Below, one piece after another: positions 3,864 to 38,731 of a DNA stretch of 64,000 bases (position 1 is its first letter; each line of letters opens with the position of its first letter). This DNA is from Mogibacterium sp. (GTDB lineage Bacteria > Bacillota > Clostridia > Peptostreptococcales > Anaerovoracaceae): the NCBI GenBank assembly GCA_017515425.1, contig JAFWFU010000007.1, forward strand, positions 62,001 through 126,000, in the 5' to 3' direction. The notes beneath the pieces were generated by a model. The model worked only from the letters and a program-made list of their open reading frames with translations. It was not told where the DNA came from and made no database searches. The position numbers and the translations under genes are program-made.

Positions 3864-4133
3864 ATGAAGCTTAAAGATGACTATATTGTATATCAGGCGA
3901 GCTCGGAAGAGAGCATTGCAGTAGCGACGGGAGATGAAGCTGACAATTTCAACGGATTGCTCCGCGCTAATAAGACAGCGGGGGAAATCTTAGAATTGCT
4001 GCGAAACGATATCACAGAGGAAGAGATCGTACAGGCGCTTCTCGACCGATACGACGCTGCCGAGGAAGAAATCAGAGAAGGTGTCAAAGAATGTCTCGAC
4101 TCTCTTCGCAAAGTGAGCGCTCTCGAAGAATAG
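3864..4133 (+). CDS. PqqD-family peptide chaperone (RRE-type), copy 1
   Basis: An 89-residue protein with the PqqD fold: N-terminal beta strands (DDYIVYQ, SIAVATG), then NGLLRANKTAGEILELL and the helical end with DRYDAAEEEIREGVKECLDSL. PqqD proteins bind the leader of a ribosomal peptide and present it to a radical SAM enzyme; PqqD-like proteins also accompany HPr-kinase-like proteins in EPS loci. A GGAGG site lies at 3853-3857. It pairs by similarity with the second copy at 13724. Its substrate is unknown; the small ORF at 5494-5640 is the nearest candidate. Confidence 0.85.
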   Translation: MKLKDDYIVYQASSEESIAVATGDEADNFNGLLRANKTAGEILELLRNDITEEEIVQALLDRYDAAEEEIREGVKECLDSLRKVSALEE

Positions 4134-4151
4134 CCAAGTCAATATTATAAG

Positions 4152-4307
4152 ATGAATATGCTTTGCGATAAAACTAATCCAACAATCAGCATTATCGTTC
4201 CCGTATATCGGGTCGAGCCATATCTTCGCTCCTGCCTCGACAGTGTTTTAATGCAGACCTTCACCGATTGGGAGATGATAATAGTTGACGATGGCTCTAC
4301 GGGCTAG
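4152..4307 (+). pseudogene. truncated GT2 glycosyltransferase N-terminus
   Basis: This short frame encodes 51 residues that match the start of a GT2 glycosyltransferase: [18 protein letters not shown], then IIVDDGSTG and a TAG stop. A complete GT2 protein would run for about 250 further residues, which are absent in all frames; the next gene starts 20 bases later. It is most likely a deletion remnant from the shuffling of glycosyltransferase genes in this locus. Confidence 0.75.
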
Positions 4308-4327
4308 AGCGAACAAATGTCTTAACA

Positions 4328-5455
4328 ATGTATAGAATACTTATCATAGGCTATCTGCCCTATATCAACGGAATATCCACTTCGGTTCTTAATATCTATC
4401 GCAATTTAGACCGAAGTCTTTTTCAGTATGATTTCCTCCTCAGTTCAGAATTCAGGAATGCAAATAGTCCTGACATTGAGGAAATTCGTTCCCTCGGAGC
4501 AGATATATATTATATGAATTATGATAATTATTCTTTCCCAAAATCCTCTCGCCAAAAATTTAAAGAGCTGATGTTATCAATACCGGATCTGAAAGGTGTT
4601 CATGTGCATGATCTAGCCACAATGGTCTATCCCCTGTATTTAGCGGACAGGCTTGGTTTTCCGATAAAGGTCATTCAGTGCCATACTGCGCGAAGCAAGA
4701 GCGTAACGAATAATCTAAAGAAATCAAGAAGTCAAATCGCCAAGCTCAATTTGATTAAAGGGAACCAATTTGACCGCTTCGCATGCAGTGATTTATCGGG
4801 ACTCTATGACTTCCCCGGACTATCCTACGAGATAATGCCAAACGCCGTGGATATTGACAGATTCACATATAATAAATTATATCGTTCACTTGTCAGACAA
4901 AAGCTCGGAATAAAGGACTCCTCCACTGTAATCGGCTCTGTCGGAAATGTATACTACGTTAAAAAGCCTCTATTCTCCATTGAGATATTCCATAGATTTC
5001 ATCTCAAAAATCCCGATAGCTATTATTTTGTCCTGGGCAGTGGCAATATGCTGAATAATGTTCGTGATTACGCCAAGGAGAATGGTATTTCGGACAGAGT
5101 GTTTATCTTCGGCTCGAGACTCGATATAGATATATATTATAATGCGATGGATATAGTAATCCAGCCTTCTGCTTCTGAGGGTCTGCCTAATTCATTAGTC
5201 GAGGCTCAGACCTCCGGTCTTCCCTGTCTGGTATCCGATGAGATTTCAGATATGGTCAGACTTACTCCACTTATAAGATTTATGTCATTATCCGAGGATG
5301 CCGAGTCGTGGGCGAATGAATTAGCGTCCATAAATAATAGCAGAGGTGAGCGGCGCGAATGGAGAAAAGAGATTAAATCAGCGGGATACGATATAAAAGA
5401 TGTCAGCAAAACACTGATGAATCTGTACTTAGACAGAATACATCAGTGCAAGTAA
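4328..5455 (+). CDS. GT4-family glycosyltransferase (EPS)
   Basis: A 375-residue GT-B-fold retaining glycosyltransferase that probably adds a sugar to the lipid-linked EPS repeat unit in the cytoplasm. The acceptor-side N-terminus reads GYLPYINGIST. The donor-side C-terminal half carries the EX7E motif in SEGLPNSLVEAQ followed by GLPCLVSDE. It closely resembles the genes at 9326 and 29559 (shared ACSDLSG, NAVDIDRF-like and GLPCLVSD motifs), so these are local paralogues. It converges on the small ORF at 5494-5640. Confidence 0.9.
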   Translation: MYRILIIGYLPYINGISTSVLNIYRNLDRSLFQYDFLLSSEFRNANSPDIEEIRSLGADIYYMNYDNYSFPKSSRQKFKELMLSIPDLKGVHVHDLATMVYPLYLADRLGFPIKVIQCHTARSKSVTNNLKKSRSQIAKLNLIKGNQFDRFACSDLSGLYDFPGLSYEIMPNAVDIDRFTYNKLYRSLVRQKLGIKDSSTVIGSVGNVYYVKKPLFSIEIFHRFHLKNPDSYYFVLGSGNMLNNVRDYAKENGISDRVFIFGSRLDIDIYYNAMDIVIQPSASEGLPNSLVEAQTSGLPCLVSDEISDMVRLTPLIRFMSLSEDAESWANELASINNSRGERREWRKEIKSAGYDIKDVSKTLMNLYLDRIHQCK

Positions 5456-5493
5456 TCAGTATCGTTTAGGGATTGTTCAGGCGAATACGCCTA

Positions 5494-5640
5494 TCATAAA
5501 AACGGCGGACACCCCGGTGGCAATGGTGGCGGCGGCTCTACATAAGTAATGGCAGGTTCAGTTGGGTAGGAACTGAAAATAATTTCTTCATCAAGATATA
5601 CTATCCTAATCGCCGGTCTCACAAATTTTTCTTTTTTCAT
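5494..5640 (-). CDS. candidate RiPP precursor peptide, proline-rich core
   Basis: A 48-residue ORF. AGGTGA lies five bases before its ATG and a strong promoter stands upstream (5682-5711). The N-terminal part has a leader-like pattern (VRPAIRIVYLDEEIIFSS) that matches the Cys-rich peptide at 12523 (RKPQIEAVYFD, then DDILLLSS). The C-terminal part is very different: YVEPPPPLPPGCPPFL, proline-rich with one cysteine at position 44. It has no signal peptide. It lies near PqqD copy 1. Similar short proteins with a KP-I-V-FD start are common in Clostridia; precursor status is inference. Confidence 0.6.
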   Translation of the reverse strand: MKKEKFVRPAIRIVYLDEEIIFSSYPTEPAITYVEPPPPLPPGCPPFL

Positions 5641-5681
5641 ATCGTTCACCTAGATTATACGCTATAACTATACGCAGATTA

Positions 5682-5711
5682 ATTATATATTAAAATTTTC
5701 AAAAATTTCAA
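5682..5711 (-). promoter_or_regulatory. promoter of the small ORF at 5494-5640
   Basis: TTGAAA (5706-5711) and TATAAT (5682-5687) on the minus strand are 18 bases apart. The predicted start lies about 35 bases before the ATG. A second TATAAT at 5654-5659 is too close to the ribosome site to serve. Confidence 0.6.
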
Positions 5712-5752
5712 GAAAAATATCAATACCTCTGTGTACCTCTGTGTAAATATCA

Positions 5753-7036
5753 CTATCCCTTGGAGTTTACATGCATTTCAGGCTCCTCTCCCTTCATAAC
5801 CGCTATGATTCGCGCTCTGGCATTTGCAAGGCTCTTTTCGTCCCTCGTCATAACATAGAGGTTCTGACTGCCGCCCGAATATGTCGGCATCATTGCATCA
5901 CCGCCCGTTATCGTGCTCTTGTAAATTCTCCACTCCTGATTATCGGCAAGCTGCTTTCTTACAAGTTCCCTTATCTCCTTAGGGCTGAAACTCATCTTGA
6001 AATAGTCCTGCAGCTCGGACAGTATGCTGCTGTAATTGATAATCATGGACGGACTGCTTACAGCCTTCCTGAATATAGCCTCAAACACCGCCTGCTGATT
6101 TCTTATCCTCTGCCTGTCGCCTTCCTCGAAGGCATATCTCGTCCTTGAGAACGCGAGCGCCTGCTCTCCGTTCATATGATTTGTACCCACATGCACAGTC
6201 CAATCATTGGTCGGGCTGAACTCATACTCGGAATACACATCAATCCCGCCTATAGCGTCTATGAACTTCCTCACAGTCGTGAAATTGACCTTGACATAAT
6301 AGTTCGGCTCTATATCCAGCAGGCTGCCCTCAGCCGCCATGGTGGACTCAACGCCATAATAGCCCGTATGCGTCAGCTTATCCAAGGCTCCCCCATGCTC
6401 AGCCAGCGAAATCTGATAGTCTCTCGGGATCGAAGTCATAAGGAGTTGATGAGTCCTCGGATTGACCGTCAGAACCATATTGACGTCAGACCTTCCCGGC
6501 TCATCAATCACGCCCTCTGTATCTATTCCCGTTATCACGACATGGAAGGTATCGTCCTCAACGCTTTCTACGGGCTTTTCATTTTCTGCGCTTGTGGCGG
6601 ATAGAAACGACATGGTGGTGAATGTATAAACGGTTCCGACCCCGTAAAAGAAAATGAGGAGCAGAGCGAGCAGGGCGGCGAGAATGCGAGTCCCCTTCTT
6701 CCTGCCGCGGCTTCTTAGCCCCATTACAACAGCGGCGGTGACAACGGCCAATATAACAGCTATCGCCAGCATCCATGTCTTGGGAAACATATTCAAATAA
6801 ATGAGCGAAGCTGTGAATGCGGCAAGCATCAAAAGATAGCTGCCGGTCAGAAATCTTACAGACCTGCTGACTTTTTTGCGCCCATATCTTCTCTTATAAT
6901 TTCTTTTATAATTGGCGAGGTATCTGTCGTCCGCTTCCTGTTCAGCCTTTTTAATGAGAGCCCTGTCCTCATCACTGAGGCTCCTTGCCTTGGATTCCTT
7001 CACTTCCTCACCATAGCTTTGCCTTTTATCATCCAT
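5753..7036 (-). CDS. LytR-CpsA-Psr (LCP) family glycopolymer transferase
   Basis: LCP proteins attach lipid-linked glycopolymers to peptidoglycan outside the membrane. The 427-residue protein has a charged cytoplasmic N-terminus, three hydrophobic segments between about residues 60 and 145, then the LCP domain with ITGIDTEG, GRSDVNMVLTVNP, IPRDYQ, GGIDV and ALAFSRTRYAFEEGDRQR, which include the conserved Arg and Asp residues. In this locus it is the likely final ligase for the exported polysaccharide. It is divergent from the nucleotidyltransferase gene at 7152. Confidence 0.93.
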   Translation of the reverse strand: MDDKRQSYGEEVKESKARSLSDEDRALIKKAEQEADDRYLANYKRNYKRRYGRKKVSRSVRFLTGSYLLMLAAFTASLIYLNMFPKTWMLAIAVILAVVTAAVVMGLRSRGRKKGTRILAALLALLLIFFYGVGTVYTFTTMSFLSATSAENEKPVESVEDDTFHVVITGIDTEGVIDEPGRSDVNMVLTVNPRTHQLLMTSIPRDYQISLAEHGGALDKLTHTGYYGVESTMAAEGSLLDIEPNYYVKVNFTTVRKFIDAIGGIDVYSEYEFSPTNDWTVHVGTNHMNGEQALAFSRTRYAFEEGDRQRIRNQQAVFEAIFRKAVSSPSMIINYSSILSELQDYFKMSFSPKEIRELVRKQLADNQEWRIYKSTITGGDAMMPTYSGGSQNLYVMTRDEKSLANARARIIAVMKGEEPEMHVNSKG

Positions 7037-7151
7037 ATCCGGCTACCTCTTTATGCCACCTCAGCGGTCGGCACTATATAGATTGTACCAAATGGCTGGC
7101 TGTCACGCCATAAATATAGTACAATGATGAAACTGTTTATGGGAGGATATT

Positions 7152-8384
7152 TTGGACGGGAAGAAGTCATTTTTCAATGATGTTTACCAGGCGGTCTTGT
7201 CACTCACCTCCGCCGCTTTATTCGATTCGCCGCTCAGCATTCCAGAAAATACGGATATGCGAGCCGTTTTCAATGAGGTAAAAAGCCAGCAAAACGCGTC
7301 TCTCACCTATCCCCTCATCTGTTCACTCGGTTCAGCGAATATTCCCCCTGATGTTATGAAAGAATGGGATTCTCTTCGCAGTATGTATATCAGAAACAGC
7401 GTTCTGAACATCAGCGAGCATTTCCGCGTCCACAAACTGCTGCGTGGAAACAACATCCCCTATGTGATACTTAAAGGGATCGCTTCTGGTCTCTACTATC
7501 CCGATTATATCGTAAGAGCCTGTGGCGATGTGGACTTCCTTGTTAAAAAAGATGATTACGAGAGAGCCGCAGCCCTTCTCGAAGCCGAGGGCTTTCATTT
7601 GGTATTAGAACACGATAAGCATAAGGAGTATTCCAATGGCGGCATTCCCTATGAACTTCACTGTGATATAGTCGGCGTGCCGGACACGGATATAAAAGGC
7701 GTATTCGACCAATTCTTTTCGGATATTATCGAAAAAGCCTCCGAGTTCAAACACGGCGACTCCGTCTGTATGATTCCCTCGGATATACACCATGCGGTAA
7801 TCCTGCTGCTTCACAAGGCTGAACATCTGCGCAGGGACGGAATAGGTCTCAGGCATCTCTGCGATTGGGCTGCCTTCGTCTCTTCAATGAGCGATGATTT
7901 CTTTATCGAAGAATTGCAGCCCTGTCTCAAGGAAATGGGGTTATGGCAGTTTGCTCTCATTATGACGGATCTATGCACGGAATATCTCGGGCTCAGAAAA
8001 TGCCAATGGGCGGGCAGAACCGACCCCGAATATCTTTATAGAGTGATGAATGATATTCTCTCATCAGGAGAATTCGGCAACAAAAATGCCGCCGCCGAAA
8101 CAATCGCGAGGAGACATGCCTCGCATGGCGTGATCCATGGAGAGAAGGGTTTTGTCCGGGTGTTTTTCAATATGATGAGCGACAGCGCCAAAGCCGCCTT
8201 CCCCATTGCGGAAAGACTGCCTGTCTTGCTTCCTGCCGCATACCTTTATGTCAGCCTCAGACATGTTATCAGGCTTGTCACGGGGCGGCGCTCCCTATCC
8301 GGCACAGCCAATCTTCTAAGGGAATCCGGTGAACATCGCGCCATATTTGATGAATGGCGGCTGTTTGAGAAGGAATCCCAATAA
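7152..8384 (+). CDS. nucleotidyltransferase-family protein (NTP_transf_5 type)
   Basis: A 410-residue protein with a nucleotidyltransferase fold: LKG at 107-109 and the metal-binding pattern GDVDFLV near 125-131, followed by an ELHCDIVG segment. Members of this family (PF14907 as I recall it) occur with PqqD and HPr-kinase-like proteins in lasso-peptide and EPS clusters; their reaction is mostly unproven. Start is TTG 7152, chosen because GGGAGGA lies four bases upstream; the next Met is at residue 36. It may act with the kinase-like gene at 37310 and PqqD at 3864. Confidence 0.8.
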   Translation: MDGKKSFFNDVYQAVLSLTSAALFDSPLSIPENTDMRAVFNEVKSQQNASLTYPLICSLGSANIPPDVMKEWDSLRSMYIRNSVLNISEHFRVHKLLRGNNIPYVILKGIASGLYYPDYIVRACGDVDFLVKKDDYERAAALLEAEGFHLVLEHDKHKEYSNGGIPYELHCDIVGVPDTDIKGVFDQFFSDIIEKASEFKHGDSVCMIPSDIHHAVILLLHKAEHLRRDGIGLRHLCDWAAFVSSMSDDFFIEELQPCLKEMGLWQFALIMTDLCTEYLGLRKCQWAGRTDPEYLYRVMNDILSSGEFGNKNAAAETIARRHASHGVIHGEKGFVRVFFNMMSDSAKAAFPIAERLPVLLPAAYLYVSLRHVIRLVTGRRSLSGTANLLRESGEHRAIFDEWRLFEKESQ

Positions 8385-8480
8385 TACATAAATTCACATT
8401 CTCGAAAAGCCTCTGCAAATCTGATTCAGAGGCATTCGGTGATTAGGAATAAAGAAATAGCCAAAGAAATGACTTAAAAA

Positions 8481-9362
8481 ATGACCGAAAAACCCTGCGA
8501 CAATAAAATAACTATAATTGTCCCCGTCTATAACGAGGAGTCTCGTCTTATATCTTGTGTTGAAAGCCTCTTGTCTCAAACTTGCAAAGATATAGAGATT
8601 CTTCTTGTGGATGACGGTTCCGAGGACGGCAGCAGAGAGCTCATAAGCAGTCTTGCAGAAAAATATGAGAATATACAGAAGCTCTTTCTTTCACACGGCG
8701 AGCCAATGCGAGCGAGGCTCCAAGGTGTAAAACAGGCATCATCAAAATGGATAGGCTTTGCAGACGCCGATGATGATATGGATTCCACCATGTACGAAAG
8801 CCTTCTGTCCGCAGCGCTAAAGCATGACGCAGATTTGGTCTTATGCGGTTATCACCAGCACTATCCCGAGGGAAGGACATATACATATAAAAGTTCAGTT
8901 TCGGAAGTCCTGCTGGATCGCAGCAAAGCCATGAATATGCTGCTCTGCGGAGACCATGTCGAAATGTGGGGCCCTTGCACCAAGCTGTTCCGGAGAAGAT
9001 TGTTTTCCGAAGATCTGATTGCAGAATTAAGCGAAGTCACAATTCATCATTTTGAAGACCTTTTGATGAATTACTATATCCTCAAGAAAGCGGCAAATAT
9101 AGTATCTATTCCGCAATGTCCATACCATTATAGGATAAGATATGATTCCACGTCCTATATCGGCTCTTATAGAGACGCCTGCATGGACGGACTTGCCATA
9201 AGGGAAATAATCCTTGAGGACGCGGACGAAAGTTTGCGACCAATAGCAAAATCATTCTTTCTTAAATCGTGCACTTCCCTTTACTCCTATTTGCGAGCCC
9301 GCTATCCTTCAAACCACAAATACTGTCAGGAAGTGCTCGATCTCATATTAAAGCACCGCTGA
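8481..9362 (+). CDS. GT2-family glycosyltransferase
   Basis: A 293-residue inverting GT-A glycosyltransferase. TIIVPVYNEE at residues 11-20, VDDGSEDGS near 42-50 and the DXD-type ADADDD near 94 define the nucleotide-sugar site; MWGPCTKLFRRRLF and FEDLLMNYY follow in the acceptor half. It probably adds one sugar to the EPS repeat unit. Its last 37 bases overlap the end of the convergent GT4 gene. Confidence 0.9.
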   Translation: MTEKPCDNKITIIVPVYNEESRLISCVESLLSQTCKDIEILLVDDGSEDGSRELISSLAEKYENIQKLFLSHGEPMRARLQGVKQASSKWIGFADADDDMDSTMYESLLSAALKHDADLVLCGYHQHYPEGRTYTYKSSVSEVLLDRSKAMNMLLCGDHVEMWGPCTKLFRRRLFSEDLIAELSEVTIHHFEDLLMNYYILKKAANIVSIPQCPYHYRIRYDSTSYIGSYRDACMDGLAIREIILEDADESLRPIAKSFFLKSCTSLYSYLRARYPSNHKYCQEVLDLILKHR

Positions 9363-10468
9363 TTATCGTATATCTGCATGAGTTTTTCCACTGCATCGCA
9401 AATCTCAAAGCCCGCCTTTTTTAGCTCGGGCTCATAGGATCTCCTCTCTCTTCTCTCATCGAAAAGTCGAATGGCTTCATCAACCCAGCGGTCCGACATT
9501 TCTGTCAGAGAAAGCTGTTTCACCAAATCTGTCGTGCATACCATTTCAGTCATTCTGTCAGAAACAAGACATGGCAGACCGCTCGCCTGCGCTTCCATTA
9601 CCGTATTGGGAAGCCCTTCAAACAGAGAGGGAACAAGAAATACATCCATGGCATTATAGAAAAACTCCATCTGCGGGTGCTCGCCGGTGAAGTGCACATA
9701 TTCAAGCAAGTTTTTCTCTTTAAAGAAATCTCGCAGCTTATCAAAAAGCTTCCCGTAACCGCAGATAATCATATGTGTATCCGGTTGCCGCTCGTGTACG
9801 CGCACGAAAACCTCTGCGGCAAAGAAAGGATTTTTCACCTCAGCTAGATAACCGGCAAATCCAAGCACATGGGAATCCAAGGGAATATCCAGCTTTTCCC
9901 GTGTAATCTTGCGGTATAGAAGATTTGGAGCAAATCGCTTGCAGTCGACGGCATTTGGAAATACTTCAAAGGGCAGGTCGCCGTAAGCTGCACGTCCGGA
10001 AAGATCGCTGCACGCCAGGCGGCAGAACCGAGCACCTCCTATCCGCTCTATCCCCTCGCGTTCCGCAGGGTTCTTTTCTATGCACTCAAGCATATGTCTG
10101 CTCGTCCCGGCGTGAAACTGAATTATCTTGACCGGCAGATCTAGGGAATCCGCAAGCAGAAGCGGATAGATGCTCCTGTTTACATCATGTGCGTGGACTC
10201 CGCATATATTGGGAGTCTCTTTCATTATTCTTTTCAGCTCGCGCCTGCCGTCTTTTGGGAAATCTTTTTTAGAATAATTCAGAAAGACTATCTCGGCATC
10301 GAGATCCTTCAGTCGTTTAAATTCCTCTTTATCATCTCGATGCTTTTCCGGTATCACAAAAATATAATCATAACGATTCCTGTCAAGATGACTATAGATA
10401 TTGTGAATATGTGTGGATATGCCGTTTATTCCTGGAATATAACCGGTAAGAAGTATCTTATTTGTCAT
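9326..10468 (-). CDS. GT4-family glycosyltransferase (EPS)
   Basis: A 380-residue GT-B glycosyltransferase, paralogous to the gene at 4328. Motifs are GYIPGINGISTHIHNIYSHL at the N-terminus, LACSDLSG mid-protein, and SLFEGLPNTVMEAQ (EX7E) with GLPCLVSDRM near the end. I chose ATG 10468, which begins MTNKILLTGYIPG; a longer reading adds 13 residues that overlap the upstream gene. Its start overlaps the stop of the sulfotransferase gene by 11 bases, so they are translationally coupled. Its end overlaps the convergent gene at 8481-9362. Confidence 0.9.
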   Translation of the reverse strand: MTNKILLTGYIPGINGISTHIHNIYSHLDRNRYDYIFVIPEKHRDDKEEFKRLKDLDAEIVFLNYSKKDFPKDGRRELKRIMKETPNICGVHAHDVNRSIYPLLLADSLDLPVKIIQFHAGTSRHMLECIEKNPAEREGIERIGGARFCRLACSDLSGRAAYGDLPFEVFPNAVDCKRFAPNLLYRKITREKLDIPLDSHVLGFAGYLAEVKNPFFAAEVFVRVHERQPDTHMIICGYGKLFDKLRDFFKEKNLLEYVHFTGEHPQMEFFYNAMDVFLVPSLFEGLPNTVMEAQASGLPCLVSDRMTEMVCTTDLVKQLSLTEMSDRWVDEAIRLFDERRERRSYEPELKKAGFEICDAVEKLMQIYDNQRCFNMRSSTS

Positions 10469-12424
10469 TCCTCTTAAATCCGTCCTGTGCAGGCAGAATT
10501 GCTGCAAATTCTATCAATTTCTTCGCCTTTTCAATATCTCTATCTCTATCAGGCGTCAGCACCTTGTAGTCACCTATCTCATAGTCGAAAAGTTCGTCGC
10601 AGCCGATATACTCCCTTGCTACAGCACGGTTTCCCTCTCTGTAATAATCAAGAAGCTGATCCCTTTCCTCACGCGGAAGCGGATAGTGCCGCTCGGTTTC
10701 GGGATATAAATCAGATAGGAGCCCCGCCGCTCTTTTTATTTTTTTTCTATCCACATTGCATGAGACTACGCGTTGGTTGATAGCAAGCATAGCCAGGGCG
10801 TTCTCCCCCGTAATGGAGCTGTTTATCCTGCTTGACGGGAAAACAAAGCTTTCGTCCGTCGTAACGCCCGCAAGGTCGCAGAAAGAGTCGACAATTCCGT
10901 TTTCCTTAACATTTGCTGCATATGGGATTACGATTATATTGTCCTTTCCAAAGGCTTCTCGTATAAGGCTGAGTCCATAATGATAGTCAATCATATTATC
11001 ATTTTGCATATCTCTAAGATATGTTCTGAAATCTCTGCGTTCTGGGATTCCCAGCATTCGTATGTGTTCTTTCCAATTTGAATACAACCAGTCATCTTGC
11101 CTGCGCAGACTGATGATGATTTTGAAGTCGATGTCCTCGCCGAAGATGCTCTCGTAATATCTGCGTAATGCAGACCAAAAATGATTATTTTTAATACCGC
11201 TAGTCCAGCCAGCCTCATCTGACATGAGTATAGCATGAAAACATTTTGCATACTCACCAAAGAGCCATTTCTCAAGCATCAGTTTGGAGTACAGCAGTTC
11301 ATCCGAAAAGGACTCTTGCTCCTTGAGAATCGAAAAGGTTGTGAACCATGCATTTCTAAATCTTTCAACAGCAAACTCAACAGGCTGATAGAAACATATA
11401 CCCTGAGCTTCGAGCAGTTTATAATTTTTTCTCAAAAAAGCCTGAATCGCAGTGGTCCCGGTCTTGGTCTGACCGATATGTAACACTATTCTCTTCCTCC
11501 CTTCAACAGGCTTCTTATTCTGTCTTCTCGGAAAATAGTATGAAAACAGTTCCTTGAGATCATGCAGAGAAGGTCGATCTTCTGCCGGTATATCTATTAA
11601 CACATCTAACATGTTATTTTTCTCGCAGTGCAGATAATAAATCGCCTTGCTTGCAGTTTTCTCAAACAGTGCTCTTTCTTCCAATTCCGCATCGTTCATT
11701 TCGCGATAATAGCTTGCTCTATCATTGAAGGCAAACATGGATTCCCTGAATTTTTTTTCCGGATCTATGCTGCCTAGAATGCTGCTCTGCCTTATCAATT
11801 TGCCATACATACGGATACCAAGAATCGAAACCGTCTTCACAGGTAAAAAAATCCTGTGGATTATCGCCGTATCTTCCAGCAGATGTCCTTCCGGAAATCT
11901 GAGATCAGAAAAAATGCTTCTTTCAAAAAGCTTGGAGAGGACATTCCATGAATAACTCTCAGGTACGCCGGATTTTTGGTCCAAAATATCTCTGCCGGCT
12001 GCGGTTCTGCTTTTCTCATATTCGATCCAATATTCCGGCTGTGCAATACCTCCAAATGTAATTTGCCCGCATATGCTAATCTGAGCCTTGTCTCTTAACA
12101 AAGCTTCAAGCATAAGCTCTATATATCTGTCGTGCAGGAGAAGGTCGTCCGGATCGACAAAGGTCAGATATCACCGCTCGAGATTTCTATTCCCTTGTTT
12201 CTCGCTGCCGATAATCCTTTGTTTTCCTGGTGAATCACGACGATTCTCTGATCGTTTTTTGCATATTCCTCGCAAATCTCTCCGCTTCTATCCGTCGAGC
12301 CGTCATCAATCAGCAGGATCTCCAGATTTTTATATGTCTGCGCACATATGCTGTCGAGACAGCTTCTTAGATATTTCTCAACCTGATATATCGGTACGAT
12401 GATACTAATCAAGGGCAACTTCAT
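10458..12424 (-). pseudogene. GT2 glycosyltransferase-sulfotransferase fusion, frameshifted
   Basis: The first part (12164-12424) encodes a GT2 N-terminus: [18 protein letters not shown] and GLSAARNKG, ending at TGA 12164-12166. The same protein resumes one frame over as [19 protein letters not shown] and runs to 10458. One missing base near 12167 explains the break; restoring it gives about 655 residues. After the GT2 domain comes a sulfotransferase domain with the PAPS loop GQTKTGTT and an SLRRQDDWLYSNW segment. The intact protein would add a sugar and sulfate it. The rest of the gene is undamaged, so a recent mutation, a sequencing error or slippage are all possible. Confidence 0.85.
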
Positions 12425-12442
12425 GTAATAAACTCCCAATTA

Positions 12443-12484
12443 CAAAAATACATGCGAGACTGATCTTGACCATCCCACATGTAT
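12443..12484 (-). terminator. terminator of the Cys-rich peptide gene
   Basis: On the minus strand a 12-bp stem (ATACATGTGGGA against TCTCGCATGTAT, with wobble pairs) is followed by TTTTTG. It lies 39 bases after the stop of the peptide gene and before the sulfotransferase-fusion gene. Confidence 0.75.
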
Positions 12485-12522
12485 ATTCCTTTGAAAAACT
12501 AAGATAAATGACACAACTATTA

Positions 12523-12723
12523 TTAGTTCATTGGACATTGCTCATTTAAACCGCAAGTGAAACCAGAATCAGAGTAACAATAATTCACCCAGCAAACATT
12601 ATCACAATGAGTTCTACAATTCTGAGCACCACCATCAGTACTACAGCTACTCAAAAGCAATATATCATCCTGAACATCAAAGTATACTGCCTCTATCTGA
12701 GGTTTTCTCCATACTTCCTTCAT
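12523..12723 (-). CDS. candidate Cys-rich RiPP precursor peptide
   Basis: A 66-residue peptide with seven cysteines in the C-terminal 40 residues (27, 36, 40, 44, 49, 57, 63). The leader-like N-terminus matches that of the small ORF at 5494: RKPQIEAVYFD, then an acidic DD, hydrophobics and SS. It has no signal peptide. AGAGAGGA precedes the ATG. It is a self-contained transcription unit, with a promoter at 12769-12797 and a terminator at 12443-12484. It follows a radical SAM gene by 139 bases. Cys-rich cores next to radical SAM/SPASM enzymes suggest a sactipeptide- or ranthipeptide-like product; this is inference. Confidence 0.7.
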   Translation of the reverse strand: MKEVWRKPQIEAVYFDVQDDILLLSSCSTDGGAQNCRTHCDNVCWVNYCYSDSGFTCGLNEQCPMN

Positions 12724-12768
12724 AATACCAAATCCTCTCTATTAAGCAGGGCATTCTCGCACGCATAT

Positions 12769-12797
12769 ATAGTAACATAAAAAATCGCTGTATACAA
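12769..12797 (-). promoter_or_regulatory. promoter of the Cys-rich peptide gene
   Basis: TTGTAT (12792-12797) and TACTAT (12769-12774) on the minus strand, spaced exactly 17 bases. The predicted transcript runs about 320 bases to the terminator at 12443-12484 and holds only the peptide gene. Confidence 0.65.
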
Positions 12798-12862
12798 ATC
12801 TTTCATGTATTTTCTAAGGCTTTCGTGCATTTTTGAGATTAACAATTATATCCGATTGCCCC

Positions 12863-13675
12863 TCAACATCTCTCGACCCATTCTTCTATATCATGTTCTC
12901 CCGAGTTTTCCCACCGCAAGCGAGACTCGTTTCCGTAATTGCAGTAGGAGCAGAAAGGTTTGGGCTCTCTCATCCACTGTTCCACCATGCCCGCGTCCAA
13001 AATGCTATCGACCAGCAGATAATCTCCGTCCTCGTGGGCAAATGATGTGCCATAATGTCTGTTGATATGCTCAATATATGCAGAGTAGGAGCATGGATAT
13101 AGCCTTCCGTCACGAACCTGCATGCACTTTGCCCTGCACGAAGAGTAGGCATGCCTCGAATCAAAGCCTTTGTCTTCTGCAAGTCTGACAGCACTGAACC
13201 TCAATACAGGATAATCTAAGCCTGCCAGCTTAACGCCTTTGATCTTTGCCAATGATACTATGCTTTGATAATCTATCTTCATAGGATAGACCGAGATATG
13301 TATCGTAATATCATGCTCTTTGATAACTTCCCAGAAATTATCTGACATCTTCTCCAACAAGATACCATTTGTTGTCAGAAATGTATTTACACCCTTTGGG
13401 ATTCTCTCTCCGACATAGCTCAGTATCATGTCTATATCGGGATGCAGCAGTGGTTCGCCTCCGAGAACATTCATTTGACGCGGTCTGATAAGCTGAACTA
13501 CTCTCATCGCCTCAGCAATCTCATTCATTGTTGCGTACTTTGGCTCAGCCACAGGTGCATAATGAGCGCAGTGCTTACAACTCAGATTGCAGTGGTCAGC
13601 AAGATGAAATTCGAGAATACGGTTTACTCCGCATGTTTTTATTTGTTTTGAGGCTTTCCCTTTGTCTTTTGTCAT
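12863..13675 (-). CDS. radical SAM protein
   Basis: A 270-residue radical SAM enzyme. The 4Fe-4S motif CNLSCKHC uses Cys29, Cys33 and Cys36; LGGEPLLHPDI binds SAM. A further Cys set, including SSCRAKCMQ, YPCS and CSYCNYG, suggests an auxiliary cluster or a short SPASM-like end. The substrate is not known. Its position directly before the Cys-rich peptide and opposite PqqD copy 2 points to peptide modification. Radical SAM proteins of similar size also occur in polysaccharide loci, so a sugar substrate is an alternative. Confidence 0.85.
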   Translation of the reverse strand: MTKDKGKASKQIKTCGVNRILEFHLADHCNLSCKHCAHYAPVAEPKYATMNEIAEAMRVVQLIRPRQMNVLGGEPLLHPDIDMILSYVGERIPKGVNTFLTTNGILLEKMSDNFWEVIKEHDITIHISVYPMKIDYQSIVSLAKIKGVKLAGLDYPVLRFSAVRLAEDKGFDSRHAYSSCRAKCMQVRDGRLYPCSYSAYIEHINRHYGTSFAHEDGDYLLVDSILDAGMVEQWMREPKPFCSYCNYGNESRLRWENSGEHDIEEWVERC

Positions 13676-13723
13676 CGGAATTCATCTCATTCAATTTCTT
13701 GAAATCACAATACACAGGCTTCT

Positions 13724-13960
13724 ATGGATAGATTTTATCAAGTCTATATATACGATTTAACTAGTTCTGACATATTCAACGGTCTGCGCAGAGCCAATAC
13801 CACCGTCGGTGCGATTATGGAATCCTTCAAAGAAGGTCTGACAGAAAACGAGCTCGTGTCGCGCATGATGGTTCGCTTCGACGCCGATGAGGCTGATGTC
13901 AGAGAAGGAGTCACGGAAGTTCTTGACGTACTGCGCTCAGTAGGTGCTGTCGAAGAATAG
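13724..13960 (+). CDS. PqqD-family peptide chaperone, copy 2, short N-terminus
   Basis: A 78-residue protein homologous to the PqqD protein at 3864: NGLRRANTTVGAIMESF aligns with NGLLRANKTAGEILELL, and RFDADEADVREGV with RYDAAEEEIREGV. The N-terminal strand region is about 15 residues shorter than in copy 1. No ribosome site is visible, and an in-frame TGA stands eight codons upstream. It may be a trimmed, weakly translated or fading copy. It lies head-to-head with the radical SAM gene at 12863 and tail-to-tail with the one at 13975. Confidence 0.75.
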   Translation: MDRFYQVYIYDLTSSDIFNGLRRANTTVGAIMESFKEGLTENELVSRMMVRFDADEADVREGVTEVLDVLRSVGAVEE

Positions 13961-13974
13961 GCAAATTCTATTGA

Positions 13975-15603
13975 TTATTCGGATAGAAGCGCCTTCGCCG
14001 CATCGCAGTCCATGGTCTCGTTCGCCTTATGGTAGGACGGAACTATAATATCCCTATTCGCCTTTATAAACTCCTTTGTAGGCTCCGTAACACGGATAAT
14101 CCTATCATCTTTTTTGATATTTACAGGCGGGAGCCTGTCCTCGTTTTCAAGCGCTCGTAGTTTGCCCTTCTCCTTTGCCAAAGTCTCTTTATAACAGTCT
14201 CTTGGTATAGTCGGACAGCCTGTGAAGTCAGTGCAGACGGGGAAAAGTCCGCAAGTTCTGCATTTCTCCATTTCGGATCTATTTCTTTCAATGAATTTCT
14301 CCCGATTTATCGGAGTCTCGTCAAATACGGTGCCGACCACGGGCAGTTCCCCTATATGCTCGCAGAGATTGAATTTGCCATTTGGAAGTATCACCGGTCC
14401 GGCTGTAGGTTCATCTACCATGCAGTAATGCCGTCTTAGGAAGCCCTGTCTGTTGTAGTATCTCCGGGCTCCTTCCTTGCGTTCTTTTTCTTCCTTCGTT
14501 TCCTCATCCTCAGGGCATCTATCCTCAGGCGTCTCCCACTGTATATTCGAATCGTCAATGGGCTCCTGGGAAACCTCGTCAGGCGTCTTGTAGTTTTCCC
14601 TCCTGTTACGGTTGAATTCTTCGAGTCGGTCGCTCAGCTTCTCCATACCGCTATAGAGCCTATCATTATCCCTGTTAGGGTCGTCGCCTTCCTCTGCGAA
14701 AATGCCGTGGCAGTATATGCTAATCAAGCTCTCTTTTTCAAATTCATGCTCCAGCTCGTCCGCGAGCAGCATTAGCTCATCAAGGTTCTCCTCATCAACA
14801 TTAAGCCTTATGCTCACCCTTATATTTTGATCCAGCAGGGCGTGTATTCCGCGCAGCACCGCTCTGCAAGGAGAACCCTCAAAGTTTTTATATCTCTTTC
14901 GCTCGCAGTAAACCTCTTCCCTTCCGTCAAGGGTAATCTGAATGCTGTTTAAATGCCATTCCTTCTTCGCCTTAGCCGCCATTTCCTCAGTCATCAGAGA
15001 CCCGTTCGAAACTATATTAGATGTATATTCCACGCCCGCATCTCTCATCGCTTCGCTGATTCGGTCTATATGCTTTTCCCCAAGCAAAGGCTCTCCGCCA
15101 AACCAATGAAGATGAACCGTGCTCCCCTCTCTTCTAGTTGCGTGGATATATCGTATAGTCTGCTTGAGCACTTCATCACTCATCGTCTCGTATTCAAGAC
15201 CTTCTTCATAGCAGTACGCGCACCTCGCATTGCAACAGGTCGTAGGGAGTATGGTATATCCCATATATCCCGGCTTAGGCTTCTCCATGCGGCGCAGGAT
15301 TGGCAGCAATCCCGTGTATTTCTTTATCTCGTCGAAATCGTCTCTGACCAGATAATCATTGGCGATCAGCTCCTTCATCTCCGCGTCGCCTTCGTCATAT
15401 ACCAGCTTGCCGGGCTCTTCGAACCATGAATAGTTTTCGGTCTCTATGCAATGACACGTAAAGGTATTCAGCACGACCTTCCTCTTTCCGAGCGCAAGCG
15501 GTATTGCAAAAATAGAAGGTCTTATGACATCGCCCTCATTGATTCCCTTATTTTTACCCAGCATTGCGCTCACCTTAGGGTCAGGTCTTTGAAGTGTTAT
15601 CAT
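13975..15603 (-). CDS. radical SAM/SPASM peptide maturase
   Basis: A 542-residue enzyme typical of RiPP maturases. Residues 1-115 form an N-terminal region that may hold an RRE-like leader-binding fold. The SAM cluster CNARCAYC uses Cys124, Cys128 and Cys131, and WFGGEPLLG follows near 167-175. A highly charged insertion lies around 330-395 (EEF, DEETKEEKERKEG). The SPASM end has LCEH, CRTCGLFPVC, FTGCP and DCYKE cysteines for two auxiliary clusters. Such enzymes install thioether, C-C or similar bonds in peptides. The exporter gene at 15814 lies upstream on the same strand; the Cys-rich peptide is a candidate substrate. Confidence 0.9.
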   Translation of the reverse strand: MITLQRPDPKVSAMLGKNKGINEGDVIRPSIFAIPLALGKRKVVLNTFTCHCIETENYSWFEEPGKLVYDEGDAEMKELIANDYLVRDDFDEIKKYTGLLPILRRMEKPKPGYMGYTILPTTCCNARCAYCYEEGLEYETMSDEVLKQTIRYIHATRREGSTVHLHWFGGEPLLGEKHIDRISEAMRDAGVEYTSNIVSNGSLMTEEMAAKAKKEWHLNSIQITLDGREEVYCERKRYKNFEGSPCRAVLRGIHALLDQNIRVSIRLNVDEENLDELMLLADELEHEFEKESLISIYCHGIFAEEGDDPNRDNDRLYSGMEKLSDRLEEFNRNRRENYKTPDEVSQEPIDDSNIQWETPEDRCPEDEETKEEKERKEGARRYYNRQGFLRRHYCMVDEPTAGPVILPNGKFNLCEHIGELPVVGTVFDETPINREKFIERNRSEMEKCRTCGLFPVCTDFTGCPTIPRDCYKETLAKEKGKLRALENEDRLPPVNIKKDDRIIRVTEPTKEFIKANRDIIVPSYHKANETMDCDAAKALLSE

Positions 15604-15813
15604 TGTTAAACTCCCCGCTAATCCACTCTCAGCAATAGCCCCCGCTATCTAATTCTAACATTTTTATCATCTGTAATCAGCTAATCTGTTACTTCAATCA
15701 TACCTTCCATGACTATATATTCCCTAAAGCGCTTTTGTTTGTCATCTAAAAGAAATAAAATCGTAAGTTGCATATGCAAGTTTGCCAAGTTTAGCGGACT
15801 GCACTTGTCGGCT

Positions 15814-17616
15814 TTAGTTAATATCTCTCAAATAGCCCTCGTCTACCTTATACACTCGGTCGCAAATCTCCATGACCGATGGTCTGTGGGTTGTAATCAC
15901 CAGGGCTCGTCCCTTCGCCTCTTTTTTCAGATTGTGCAAAACGCGCTTCTCCGTTGCCACATCAAGCGCGCTCGTAGCCTCATCAAAGAGGAGTATGGGA
16001 GACTCCCTGAGAAGAGCGCGGGCAATCGCTATGCGCTGAGCCTGCCCCTCCGACAGTCCCCTGCCGTTTTCTCTTACCTTCGTCTCCATTCCCTCGGAGA
16101 GCTTCTCAACAAACTCCCACGCGTCCGCCATTTTGAGAGCCTTTATCAGTTCATCATCACTTGCGCCTTCGTTCATCATTCTAAGGTTTTCCGCTATCGT
16201 ACCCGCAAAGAGTGAATTACCCTGAGGAACATAGGAGAAAAGATGTCTCGTATCTGCACTGATTTCAATGACATTTCCATTCTCATCACGGATCTCGCAA
16301 ATGCCGGAATTAGGATAGATGAGCCCGAGCATTATCCTAAGAAGCGTCGTCTTGCCGCGTCCCGTAGGACCCACTATGGCTATCATCTCGCCCGTGGAGA
16401 CGCTGAGTCCGCCTTCGCGTATAACGGGGGCTTCATCTCCATAGGCGAAGCTCATATCGCACACGTCCAAGCTAAGATTATGGGGAATTGCTATATCCTC
16501 ACCCCCCGCGCCATGTTTCTCGGAGGGCAGCTCCATAAGCTCCACTATCCTATGCGCGGATACCGAGCTGTTGACAAAATTCGGTATGATTGAGCCGACG
16601 TTCATCATTGCATTCGTCAGCCTTCCTCTCTGCTGTATGAAGAGAATCATGGTGCCGTAGGTTATCTCATTGCTCCAGAGCAGCCAAAGCGCATAGGCGA
16701 AGGATATGGCTGTAAGCAGCATTTGCAGCAGCCTCATAACTATATTGCGCCTTATGTCAAATGCGTTTCGTTCAAGCGCATAGTCTCTTATCTCGCCCTG
16801 CGTATCATCAAAGCCGTCTGCGAAGCGGTCTATGAGCCCCATGGACTTCACAGTGTCCATACGATAGAAAGCCTCCGTCTCGTATGTATAGAGCTTGCTG
16901 CTGAGCTCTCGGGTTTTCCTATGATACTCCCTCTCCTTTATCAGAAAAGCACGCCTTACCAAAAACAAAACCGGAGCCCCCGCAACCGCTATTAGCGTCA
17001 TCCCCCTGCTGTAATGCCAAATAACAAGGAAGGTCGCGAGGAAATTATAGCCCGTGATTACGAGATTAGGCATCCAGGAAATCGCATTCGAGGATATTGT
17101 TCCCGCGTCTACATTTATGCGATTCAGCAAGTCCCCATTCGAATATTGCTGCAAAGCCATCCAATCCGCGTCAATAATCTTGTGAAACACATCCTCCTGC
17201 ACGTCACGCTGTATCGCCGTAGTCACCTTCGCCGAGTATCTCGAATTAACGCCGTTCATCAGAAGGCTAAGGACATTAGTGCCTATCCAAATCAGGATTA
17301 TCAGCCAGAGCAACTCCGTCTTGTGGCCCGTCACGATATCCACCATATATTTGTTGGCGACGGACGAGACGAGTCCGAAGGTGGTCGAAAATATCCCGAA
17401 TAAAGTAAAGACTACTATCTGCCACCTATATCTTTTCGAATACGAAAAAATCCAGCTCCAATCGTGGAAGAATTCGCCGAGTTCGTCGTTCTTAATCTTT
17501 TCGCACAGAAATTCAAAAGTCTGTATCTTGAAAACAGATTCCTTCCGGTCTTCTTTGCCATTCTCCCCTTTATCCTGTTTTTCCTGTTTCAGTTTCTCTT
17601 TTCCCTGTTCTTTCAT
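15814..17616 (-). CDS. ABC transporter, fused permease and ATPase
   Basis: A 600-residue half-transporter. After a Lys/Glu/Gln-rich N-terminus (about 1-50) comes a membrane domain with about six segments between 60 and 340. The ATPase domain has Walker A GPTGRGKTT, the LSEGQ signature, Walker B ILLFDEATSALD and a switch histidine in TTHRP. It has no N-terminal C39 peptidase, so it would not itself cleave a leader. Located between the flippase and the SPASM enzyme, it is the natural exporter for the putative peptide. The 210-base gap after it holds no convincing gene. Confidence 0.9.
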   Translation of the reverse strand: MKEQGKEKLKQEKQDKGENGKEDRKESVFKIQTFEFLCEKIKNDELGEFFHDWSWIFSYSKRYRWQIVVFTLFGIFSTTFGLVSSVANKYMVDIVTGHKTELLWLIILIWIGTNVLSLLMNGVNSRYSAKVTTAIQRDVQEDVFHKIIDADWMALQQYSNGDLLNRINVDAGTISSNAISWMPNLVITGYNFLATFLVIWHYSRGMTLIAVAGAPVLFLVRRAFLIKEREYHRKTRELSSKLYTYETEAFYRMDTVKSMGLIDRFADGFDDTQGEIRDYALERNAFDIRRNIVMRLLQMLLTAISFAYALWLLWSNEITYGTMILFIQQRGRLTNAMMNVGSIIPNFVNSSVSAHRIVELMELPSEKHGAGGEDIAIPHNLSLDVCDMSFAYGDEAPVIREGGLSVSTGEMIAIVGPTGRGKTTLLRIMLGLIYPNSGICEIRDENGNVIEISADTRHLFSYVPQGNSLFAGTIAENLRMMNEGASDDELIKALKMADAWEFVEKLSEGMETKVRENGRGLSEGQAQRIAIARALLRESPILLFDEATSALDVATEKRVLHNLKKEAKGRALVITTHRPSVMEICDRVYKVDEGYLRDIN

Positions 17617-37309: not shown

Positions 37310-38053
37310 TCATCTTCTACCCTTTAGAGCCTCGTATGCAACGCTCACAGCCTCGCTGTCCTTGGTGCAGCCCATTGAATATACGGGGATCTCCGAGATT
37401 ATATAGTCTATGAATCCGAGCGTCCTCTGCATATTCGCGGCGTCCCTGCTTCTGTATATCTGATTCATCAGGCTCTCCCAGGCGCTCGTCCTCTCCATTT
37501 CCTCTATCCTGTTCTCCTTCGCTTGGTGAAGGCATATCACGGCTTTCAGAGGGCTGGATATATTATTGCTCCAGCTTTCCTTTCCGCACCACGGGGAACC
37601 GCACGCCATTACTTCGTCGCTCCCGATTCTTATCAGAGGCTTGTCATCATTTATGACCCTCATTCTATCCTTGAATTCCTTTTTCCAGAGCTTGATATGC
37701 GTAGTTTTGCCCGTTCCGCTCGGGCCCGAGAAGAGATAGCCCTCTCCGTCCACCGAAATCGCCGCCGCATGGATAAGGAAGGTATCGTATTCCGGAAGCC
37801 GCTCCGCTATCTCCCTGTATATAAAGAGCTTCTCTAGCTGAAAAGGCGGAATATCGCCCCTGCCGATATAGGCGATTCCCTTCTCTCTTTCGTCCTCTAT
37901 ATCGCTCTCGCCCACTTCAATAGTAAAGGCGGGGGAATCCTCGCTGATGTATTTCTTGCAGAAGTCCCTCATTCTCTCATGGCGCGGCTTTATGCCTATG
38001 CAGACGCCCGCTAACTCTATATTGAAACTATCCCCTATTCTTTCCTCAGTCAT
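37310..38053 (-). CDS. HPr-kinase-like P-loop protein
   Basis: A 247-residue protein resembling the HPr(Ser) kinase/PEP-carboxykinase fold. His95 in LIHAAAI, the P-loop GPSGTGKTT at 110-118, INDDKP at 135-139 and GSPWCGK near 152-158 are the family motifs. It lacks the N-terminal domain of true HprK. HprK-related proteins of this size accompany PqqD and nucleotidyltransferase genes in EPS/exosortase and lasso-peptide loci. It may phosphorylate a peptide, sugar or small carrier; the substrate is unknown. Its stop is seven bases before the next gene. Confidence 0.8.
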   Translation of the reverse strand: MTEERIGDSFNIELAGVCIGIKPRHERMRDFCKKYISEDSPAFTIEVGESDIEDEREKGIAYIGRGDIPPFQLEKLFIYREIAERLPEYDTFLIHAAAISVDGEGYLFSGPSGTGKTTHIKLWKKEFKDRMRVINDDKPLIRIGSDEVMACGSPWCGKESWSNNISSPLKAVICLHQAKENRIEEMERTSAWESLMNQIYRSRDAANMQRTLGFIDYIISEIPVYSMGCTKDSEAVSVAYEALKGRR

Positions 38054-38197: not shown

Positions 38198-38731
38198 CTA
38201 GTTCCCTATTAGCCTTTTTATCCCCTCTTTTATTGGTCTCGGCGTATAAGGCGCCGCGATTTCCACGAATTTCCACCAGCCTCTGAGAAAGCCTCCGCGG
38301 AGCTTTATCATTCTGACCCTCATGCGCCAGGGTCTGACCCATAGCCGCATATACAGCCTATGCTTCAAACCGCCGAGGTCAACTTCCTCTCCCTCTCTCA
38401 GCAGGGCGCGCATAACGGCTATTATCTCGTCTTTTCTGACATACTCAAGGCTGGTGCAGTTGTCGCCGAGTATGATGTAGTTATCTCCTTTTTCGCCTAT
38501 TATCCTATGGAGTATATATCGCTGAGCTTCCCCCTCGCCCTGTATTCTGACCTTGATCTTATACAGCACCACATCATGTGCGCAAAGCGGGCGTTCGACC
38601 TTTTCGAGCACGACAGCGTTGGTATCCTCGTGAATAAAAGGCTCCATGGAATAACCTCGGATTTTCCACACTATCGACCCGAATTCCTCTATTGATTGCT
38701 CTAGTGATTTGCTGCTTCGTTTTGTATCCAT
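38198..38731 (-). CDS. S24/S26-family peptidase, Ser-His signal-peptidase type
   Basis: A 177-residue protein with signal-peptidase motifs: IRGYSMEPF with Ser28, RYILHRIIG with His75, and ILGDNC near 86-91. In the usual bacterial enzyme the general base is lysine; the histidine here is the pattern of SipW/SEC11-like peptidases. No N-terminal membrane segment is visible, so it may be cytosolic or bind the membrane by its basic Trp-rich C-terminus. S24/S26 proteins recur beside PqqD, HPr-kinase-like and nucleotidyltransferase genes. It is the first gene after the operon promoter and could process the small peptides. Confidence 0.8.
   Translation of the reverse strand: MDTKRSSKSLEQSIEEFGSIVWKIRGYSMEPFIHEDTNAVVLEKVERPLCAHDVVLYKIKVRIQGEGEAQRYILHRIIGEKGDNYIILGDNCTSLEYVRKDEIIAVMRALLREGEEVDLGGLKHRLYMRLWVRPWRMRVRMIKLRGGFLRGWWKFVEIAAPYTPRPIKEGIKRLIGN

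Follow-up and report, generated by a model that had tools for sequence, protein, structure and literature searches.

Firmicutes lasso peptide clusters such as those of paeninodin and pseudomycoidin are close described counterparts of the genes reported here, a putative ribosomally synthesized and post-translationally modified peptide (RiPP) module in 64,000 nucleotides of Mogibacterium sp. (GCA_017515425.1, contig JAFWFU010000007.1, positions 62,001 to 126,000; hereafter the window). In published descriptions, lasso precursors are phosphorylated at their C-terminal Ser by HprK homologues, pseudomycoidin receives hexoses through a nucleotidyltransferase, Firmicutes lasso clusters include sulfotransferase and nucleotidyltransferase genes, and lasso clusters of rumen and other anaerobes carry HPr kinase, PqqD, and nucleotidyltransferase or sulfotransferase genes (PMC8498205, PMC7533575, PMC4289311). 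For the RiPP recognition element (RRE), RRE-Finder reports ~8,000 proteins that best fit the discrete lasso model, ~4,000 of them with lasso enzymes and ~300 of the remainder accompanied by radical SAM enzymes (PMC7470986).

We found that the window probably holds a RiPP module in which two likely precursors share a leader and at least one of them has a Cys-rich core that a radical SAM/SPASM enzyme would cross-link. At the level of sequence, the module is marked by its gene content, the shared leader, recurrence in other genomes, gene fusions, and no lasso B2 protease found. Like the Firmicutes lasso clusters, it has a B1-type PqqD, an HprK-like kinase, a nucleotidyltransferase, an ABC exporter and, as in some of them, a sulfotransferase; unlike them, it has radical SAM proteins, Cys-rich cores and an S26-type protease instead of a B2 protease. 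Its genes, in window coordinates, are as follows.

3864..4133, plus strand: intact PqqD, a lasso-B1-type RRE predicted to bind leaders (PF05402 43.8 bits, cut-off 23.4; family profile leads to lasso structures)
4152..4307, plus strand: remnant N-terminal stub of a family 2 glycosyltransferase (GT2), 73% identical over 41 residues to the L008 GT2 adjoining PqqD
5494..5640 (open reading frame, ORF, to 5649), minus strand: precursor 1, 48 aa from the likely start ATG at 5640; leader FVRPAI...DEEII-SS, proline-rich core with one Cys
7152..8384, plus strand: NTP_transf_5 protein, predicted to modify the peptide (PF14907 141.8 bits, cut-off 31.2)
10458..12439, minus strand: GT2-sulfotransferase gene with a frameshift (or assembly error) near 12164, its two frames read separately
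12523..12723, minus strand: precursor 2; leader WRKPQI...DDILLLSS, core with 7 Cys
12863..13675, minus strand: radical SAM protein rSAM2 (PF04055 48.5 bits; 52% identity with P0032, an rSAM1-rSAM2 fusion, over its C-terminal part)
13724..13960, plus strand: PqqD remnant with its N-terminal part gone (PF05402 28.4 bits; alignment)
13975..15603, minus strand: rSAM1, a radical SAM/SPASM maturase (PF04055 55.5 bits; SPASM-type cysteines)
15814..17616, minus strand: ABC exporter, predicted to export the product (PF00005 and PF00664)
37310..38053, minus strand: HprK-like protein, predicted peptide kinase (GTGK and NxDKP motifs)
38198..38731, minus strand: soluble S26-type protease, predicted leader peptidase (Ser28, His75 and Glu96 in 31/31; no membrane-like stretch)

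An earlier sequence-only reading had named these genes as a peptide-modification set within a polysaccharide locus. ORF, Pfam and NCBIfam checks confirmed that every gene it named is present: the nucleotidyltransferase, the ABC exporter, both radical SAM genes (the one at 13975 with SPASM cysteines) and the two tiny leader-bearing ORFs stand as given. Three assignments needed correction. Of its two PqqD proteins, the one at 3864 is intact and the one at 13724 is a remnant, short of ~20 N-terminal residues present in the 34 other aligned sequences; its sulfotransferase domain at 10458 is the downstream part (10458-12113) of a single GT2-sulfotransferase gene whose frame is broken near 12164; and the GT2 at 4152 is a stub. 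Its HprK-like and S26 genes fall below family cut-offs: the former reaches no Pfam or NCBIfam cut-off (best NCBIfam ScmC, 26.2 bits with a cut-off of 125), the latter scores 19.6 bits vs 47 for TIGR02227. Nevertheless, the HprK-like protein belongs to a family that recurs in profile searches, and the S26-like protein keeps Ser, His and Glu at the signal-peptidase positions.

The leader supports the peptide reading. Both window ORFs and one ORF at L008, a locus in G017 of the same genus as the window's source genome (G000; 1.73 Mb, 90% completeness), share a leader of W/F, two residues, P, one residue and I/L, followed by an acidic stretch with I/V-L/I and a serine end. An iterated profile started from six leaders matched 25 short ORFs among the 12,796 (25-110 aa) in 83 sequences totalling 1.36 Mb. 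Of the 19 non-seed leader ORFs outside the window, 16 precede an HprK-like gene on its own strand by at most 1.5 kb, a region that contains 506 of 12,123 short ORFs (hypergeometric P 6e-20, with ORFs that are not independent and a profile iterated within the same set); this placement supports the peptide-modification claim of the sequence-only reading. In a reversed-DNA control of 15,130 ORFs, the first profile gave one match (E 0.45) and the iterated profile none. Both window ORFs have a ribosome-binding-like stretch ahead of their ATG as judged by eye, and a Shine-Dalgarno pattern scan, like the promoter and terminator numbers, was at chance level. The small ORFs are a leader-bearing pair in the same module as an RRE and modifying enzymes; they are not chance ORFs and are likely precursors.

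The leader is rare among relatives. In the genus, two of 47 genomes gave matches to the profile: both window ORFs in G000 and one ORF in G017. As these three sequences are themselves profile members, the informative part is the silence of the other 45 genomes. A search with the first three precursors recovered those three only, and 22 precursors searched against 5.8 billion proteins listed 81 relatives, including the window and L008 ORFs themselves, none with a name beyond hypothetical protein. By a crude cut, 34 of the 81 have a core Cys.

The PqqD protein is of the kind that serves lasso peptides. Its family profile matches the solved structures of TbiB1 (5v1u, E 5e-10), TfuB1 (6jx3, E 3e-8) and a lasso PqqD chaperone, so that the module has the discrete B1-type RRE of a lasso cluster. 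Firmicutes lasso clusters are known to include each of the PqqD, HprK-like, NTP_transf_5, sulfotransferase and ABC genes, and we weighed whether the window is a lasso cluster that has lost or misplaced its B2 and C genes. The B2 protease family (PF13471) was found in none of 21 genomes searched, 17 of which have a completeness of ≥90% and a contamination of ≤5%, and a lasso product was rejected on this result. The lasso C family (PF00733) is uninformative since it is common genome-wide, with some match in 20 of the 21 genomes, 18 above cut-off; G000 has two sub-cut-off pieces only, and the matches listed fall outside the cassette loci. Furthermore, cores at rSAM1 loci bear Cys, which argues against a lasso. 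Hence, a lasso cluster is very improbable; the sequence-only comparison to lasso loci holds for the helper genes and not for the product class.

The nearest NCBIfam of rSAM1 is TIGR04463 at 132 bits vs a cut-off of 525, which places it in no named subfamily. Its modelled fold resembles the thioether maturase of PDB 5why over residues 30-487, and the aligned ranges of the 5why, 5wgg and 8vpo matches of full-length rSAM1 suggest an RRE in its N-terminal part. The 5why/5wgg entries, titled for thioether bond formation in sactipeptides, hold a maturase that we take to be CteB. The module is thus like ranthipeptide systems in having a radical SAM/SPASM maturase of matching fold and a Cys-rich core (7 Cys in precursor 2, one in precursor 1). 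It differs from them in its separate PqqD, rSAM2, kinase, NTP_transf_5 and sulfotransferase, and in its low TIGR04463 score.

Core cysteines go with rSAM1. A precursor ORF with at least two Cys was found at 7 of the 7 rSAM1 loci that have a precursor vs 0 of 16 loci without rSAM1 (whole ORFs, the safer measure since core cuts are crude; Fisher 4e-6, five of the seven being seeds hand-picked for their leaders). L024 has one precursor with Cys and one without, and the window has one Cys-rich precursor and one proline-rich precursor with a single Cys. Close rSAM1 proteins are rare, being found in G000, G017 and G020 among 196 related genomes, and in the genus the same three of 47 genomes hold PqqD. 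More distant radical SAM matches (L004-L006, L015-L017; 25-27% identity in tblastn, with ORFs examined for L015) were set aside as other loci.

The SynChlorMet cassette also combines two radical SAM proteins, a PqqD relative and an HprK-like protein. The window module is like it (ScmC, ScmD, ScmE, ScmF) in this composition, and unlike it in that leader peptides are known in the window module and Scm scores are far under cut-off: ScmC 26.2/125, ScmE 49.5/400 for rSAM1 and 25.2/400 for rSAM2, and ScmF 30.6/400 for rSAM2. Scores for the HPr-rel-A system are likewise too low (TIGR04352 kinase 12.3/200, TIGR04353 PqqD 24.6/35).

The gene set recurs. At L008, S26, HprK, rSAM1, sulfotransferase, leader ORF, PqqD, GT2, rSAM2 and NTP_transf_5 lie within 7.4 kb, followed by CysD and CysNC; at L023, leader ORF, rSAM1, HprK, PqqD, S26, ABC and NTP_transf_5 form a co-directional run. 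L014 has rSAM1, PqqD, NTP_transf_5 and CysD/N on a 4 kb contig with no leader ORF in reach. The rSAM1 of L023 is a more distant relative, as are those of L024, where S26 is fused to NTP_transf_5, of L085 and L104, which retain parts of the module, of L026, a short contig with rSAM1 and a leader ORF, and of L025, where the stretch gave no match to PqqD, HprK, S26 or NTP_transf_5. A leader ORF and HprK, without rSAM1, occur at sixteen more loci, at most 1.5 kb apart in fourteen and 5-7 kb apart in L036 and L070.

For wider counts, we used 80 HprK loci, L008, L023 and L024 together with 77 chosen for long coverage and HprK-like bit score; this choice omitted most matches that run from profile position ~80 onward in ~300-aa ORFs (likely housekeeping HPr kinase), and its counts carry no information on PqqD without HprK. 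Within 6 kb of HprK, PqqD was found at 54 loci, S26 at 39, NTP_transf_5 at 23, ABC at 20 and rSAM1 at 5. The S26 counts are restricted to ORFs of less than 260 aa, as the S26 profile drifted once a fusion protein joined and also marked ABC and NTP_transf_5 ORFs. In L049, L050 and L060, HprK is followed by an ABC gene on the opposite strand and next by PqqD and S26; no leader ORF was recognised there, and these loci may use a different precursor.

Several observations weigh against a radical SAM-modified peptide as the product of a working module. The two non-seed loci of the cysteine test give Fisher 0.0065 by themselves, and 3 of the 16 leader loci without rSAM1 have a single Cys in the ORF. 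A PDB search with the HprK-like profile gave nothing at E 0.01. Of the 54 loci with PqqD and HprK, 37 have no leader ORF within 1.5 kb. In addition, the module in the window may be decaying, as its genes are dispersed across 35 kb on both strands, one PqqD is a remnant and the GT2-sulfotransferase gene is broken.

The missing leader ORFs bear on what the enzymes act on. The sequence-only reading had proposed checking whether leader ORFs co-occur with the enzymes; they do as seen from the leader ORFs (16/19, above), and less so as seen from the enzymes, since only 17 of the 54 loci have one within 1.5 kb (16 by profile, L104 by hand). A relaxed motif scan of the 35 PqqD-HprK loci without any profile match gave L104 as the one locus credible by eye (ORF E 4.4 with the first profile), and, against a simple rule of co-occurrence, one of 26 HprK loci without PqqD has a leader ORF (L085). 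HprK, PqqD and S26 may thus act on another substrate, such as adjacent large secreted proteins, with the leader ORFs as accessory or regulatory peptides. In line with this, 14 of 23 leader ORFs outside the window start 3-57 bp behind a same-strand ORF of at least 250 aa, 10 of these large ORFs being signal-peptide-positive in a crude test. What argues for the peptide as substrate is that cysteine content tracks rSAM1 and that the leader has a W/F/YxxPxI-like motif of the RRE-bound kind, the common motif being W/Y/LxxP/L/I in PMC12710340. We consider another substrate unlikely.

The leader ORFs behind large ORFs are those of L065, L086, L071, L096, L112, L066, L095, L076, L080, L037, L084, L085, L026 and L067, and one of the 10 signal-peptide-positive ORFs has a cut 5' end; leader peptides may be co-expressed with large secreted proteins. 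The window itself encodes a secreted protein of 2,271 aa built from repeated bacterial-Ig-like units (48205-55020), 10 kb past the S26 gene on the same strand, and the leader profile found no leader ORF beside it.

The gene damage in the window raises the alternative that it holds the remains of a module that has ceased to function. The PqqD remnant, the GT2 stub, the frameshifted GT2-sulfotransferase gene and the dispersed genes are as expected of decay, whereas rSAM1, rSAM2, one PqqD, NTP_transf_5, ABC, the HprK-like protein, S26 and both precursors all have full open frames. Decay to a non-working state is therefore doubtful, though we give it more weight than a change of substrate. The PqqD remnant (13724-13960) is convergent with rSAM1 a few bases off, like the intact PqqD of L014 (902-1210); since it shares this arrangement, we suggest that the working copy at 3864 was moved or duplicated.

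The sequence-only reading had coupled the peptide to the surrounding exopolysaccharide (EPS), as attached to it or secreted with it. In the window, the minus strand runs S26, HprK, then ~20 kb on ABC, rSAM1, rSAM2 and precursor 2, with EPS genes between (38.7 to 12.5 kb), so that these module genes share a strand with the EPS genes; PqqD and NTP_transf_5 are on the plus strand. Elsewhere, 3 of 80 loci have a Wzz, WbaP, Wzx, GT2, GT4 or Rml marker no more than 8 kb from HprK, as found with profiles built from window genes and so of limited sensitivity. The sole leader-bearing locus among them is L008 with a single GT2, and Wzz-like genes at L081 and L105 are the sole other hints of EPS. L008 and L023 hold the module without an EPS locus in the stretch examined. 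Hence, EPS linkage is not conserved, the EPS neighbourhood looks local to this genome as far as tested, and a peptide made for the polysaccharide is quite unlikely; the coupling did not hold up.

Other Clostridia also carry the gene set, for the most part outside polysaccharide loci, and the lasso protease was not found in 21/21 genomes; hence, the module likely makes an undescribed kind of modified peptide. By its family and the motif, the lasso-B1-type PqqD would bind the W/FxxPxI leader. As the modelled fold and the link of cysteines to rSAM1 suggest, rSAM1 with rSAM2 may form thioether or similar bonds at core cysteines. By analogy to paeninodin and pseudomycoidin, the HprK-like protein would phosphorylate the peptide and NTP_transf_5 would add to the phosphate. 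The soluble S26 protease would then cut off the leader, possibly where the motif ends in S-S, the ABC protein would export the product, and in sister clusters the sulfotransferase may sulfate it, the window gene being frameshifted.

More broadly, we tentatively propose, at somewhat less than even confidence, a widespread unnamed clostridial RiPP class of short leader-core peptides served by an HprK-like kinase, a lasso-type RRE, an NTP_transf_5 enzyme, an exporter and a soluble S26 protease with Ser, His and Glu, with no lasso macrocyclase and often located behind a large secreted protein; one branch, with the window, would add radical SAM cross-linking of Cys and sulfation. We found no description of this gene combination in our searches of the open-licence literature, and a prior description elsewhere is possible. 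The module pairs the lasso-type helper kit with radical SAM chemistry replacing the lasso-forming enzymes. The window PqqD resembles the discrete lasso-type RREs that occur without lasso enzymes in RRE-Finder, with the difference that a cassette and likely precursors accompany it; these genes may belong to that set. If the proposed class is real, it would account for a share of such RREs, and its cassette and precursors may explain part of the ~4,000. It would also name candidate substrates for the HprK-like and NTP_transf_5 families beyond lasso peptides, and the pairing suggests a portable cassette, made up of RRE, kinase, nucleotidyltransferase, protease and exporter, that serves different peptide chemistries.

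Sulfation was judged from the sulfotransferase and from APS (adenosine 5'-phosphosulfate) kinase genes. With no Pfam match at E 0.01, the window ORF at 10458-12113 takes its name from the L008 protein, to which it is 31% identical, and from a TKTGTT loop, presumably binding 3'-phosphoadenosine 5'-phosphosulfate. Because this gene is broken, sulfation in the window genome is doubtful. A full-length APS kinase domain was found in 3 of the 47 genus genomes (G000, G017, and G043, which is without rSAM1); matches occur in 24 of the 47, the other 21 being partial and excluded from the count. The association with rSAM1 in the genus gives Fisher 0.008 strict and 0.0002 lenient; the sequence of G020, the third rSAM1 genome of the genus, stops inside CysN. 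Among the eight rSAM1 genomes, APS kinase is full-length in G000, G017 and G391, partial in G742 and G448, and without a match in G265, G392 and G020. The G000 gene is on another contig with sulfate transport genes.

Gene fusions join several of these activities: rSAM1 with sulfotransferase (P0008, P0026, P0027), rSAM1 with rSAM2 (P0032, P0033, P0035), and S26 with NTP_transf_5 (L024). The rSAM1-sulfotransferase fusions point to both activities acting on one product. The L008 sulfotransferase is 55% identical to the C-terminal part of P0008. In P0026 and P0027, rSAM1 is joined to Sulfotransfer_2 (PF03567), a type that differs from the sulfotransferase of P0008 and L008; hence, the two activities were joined twice separately.

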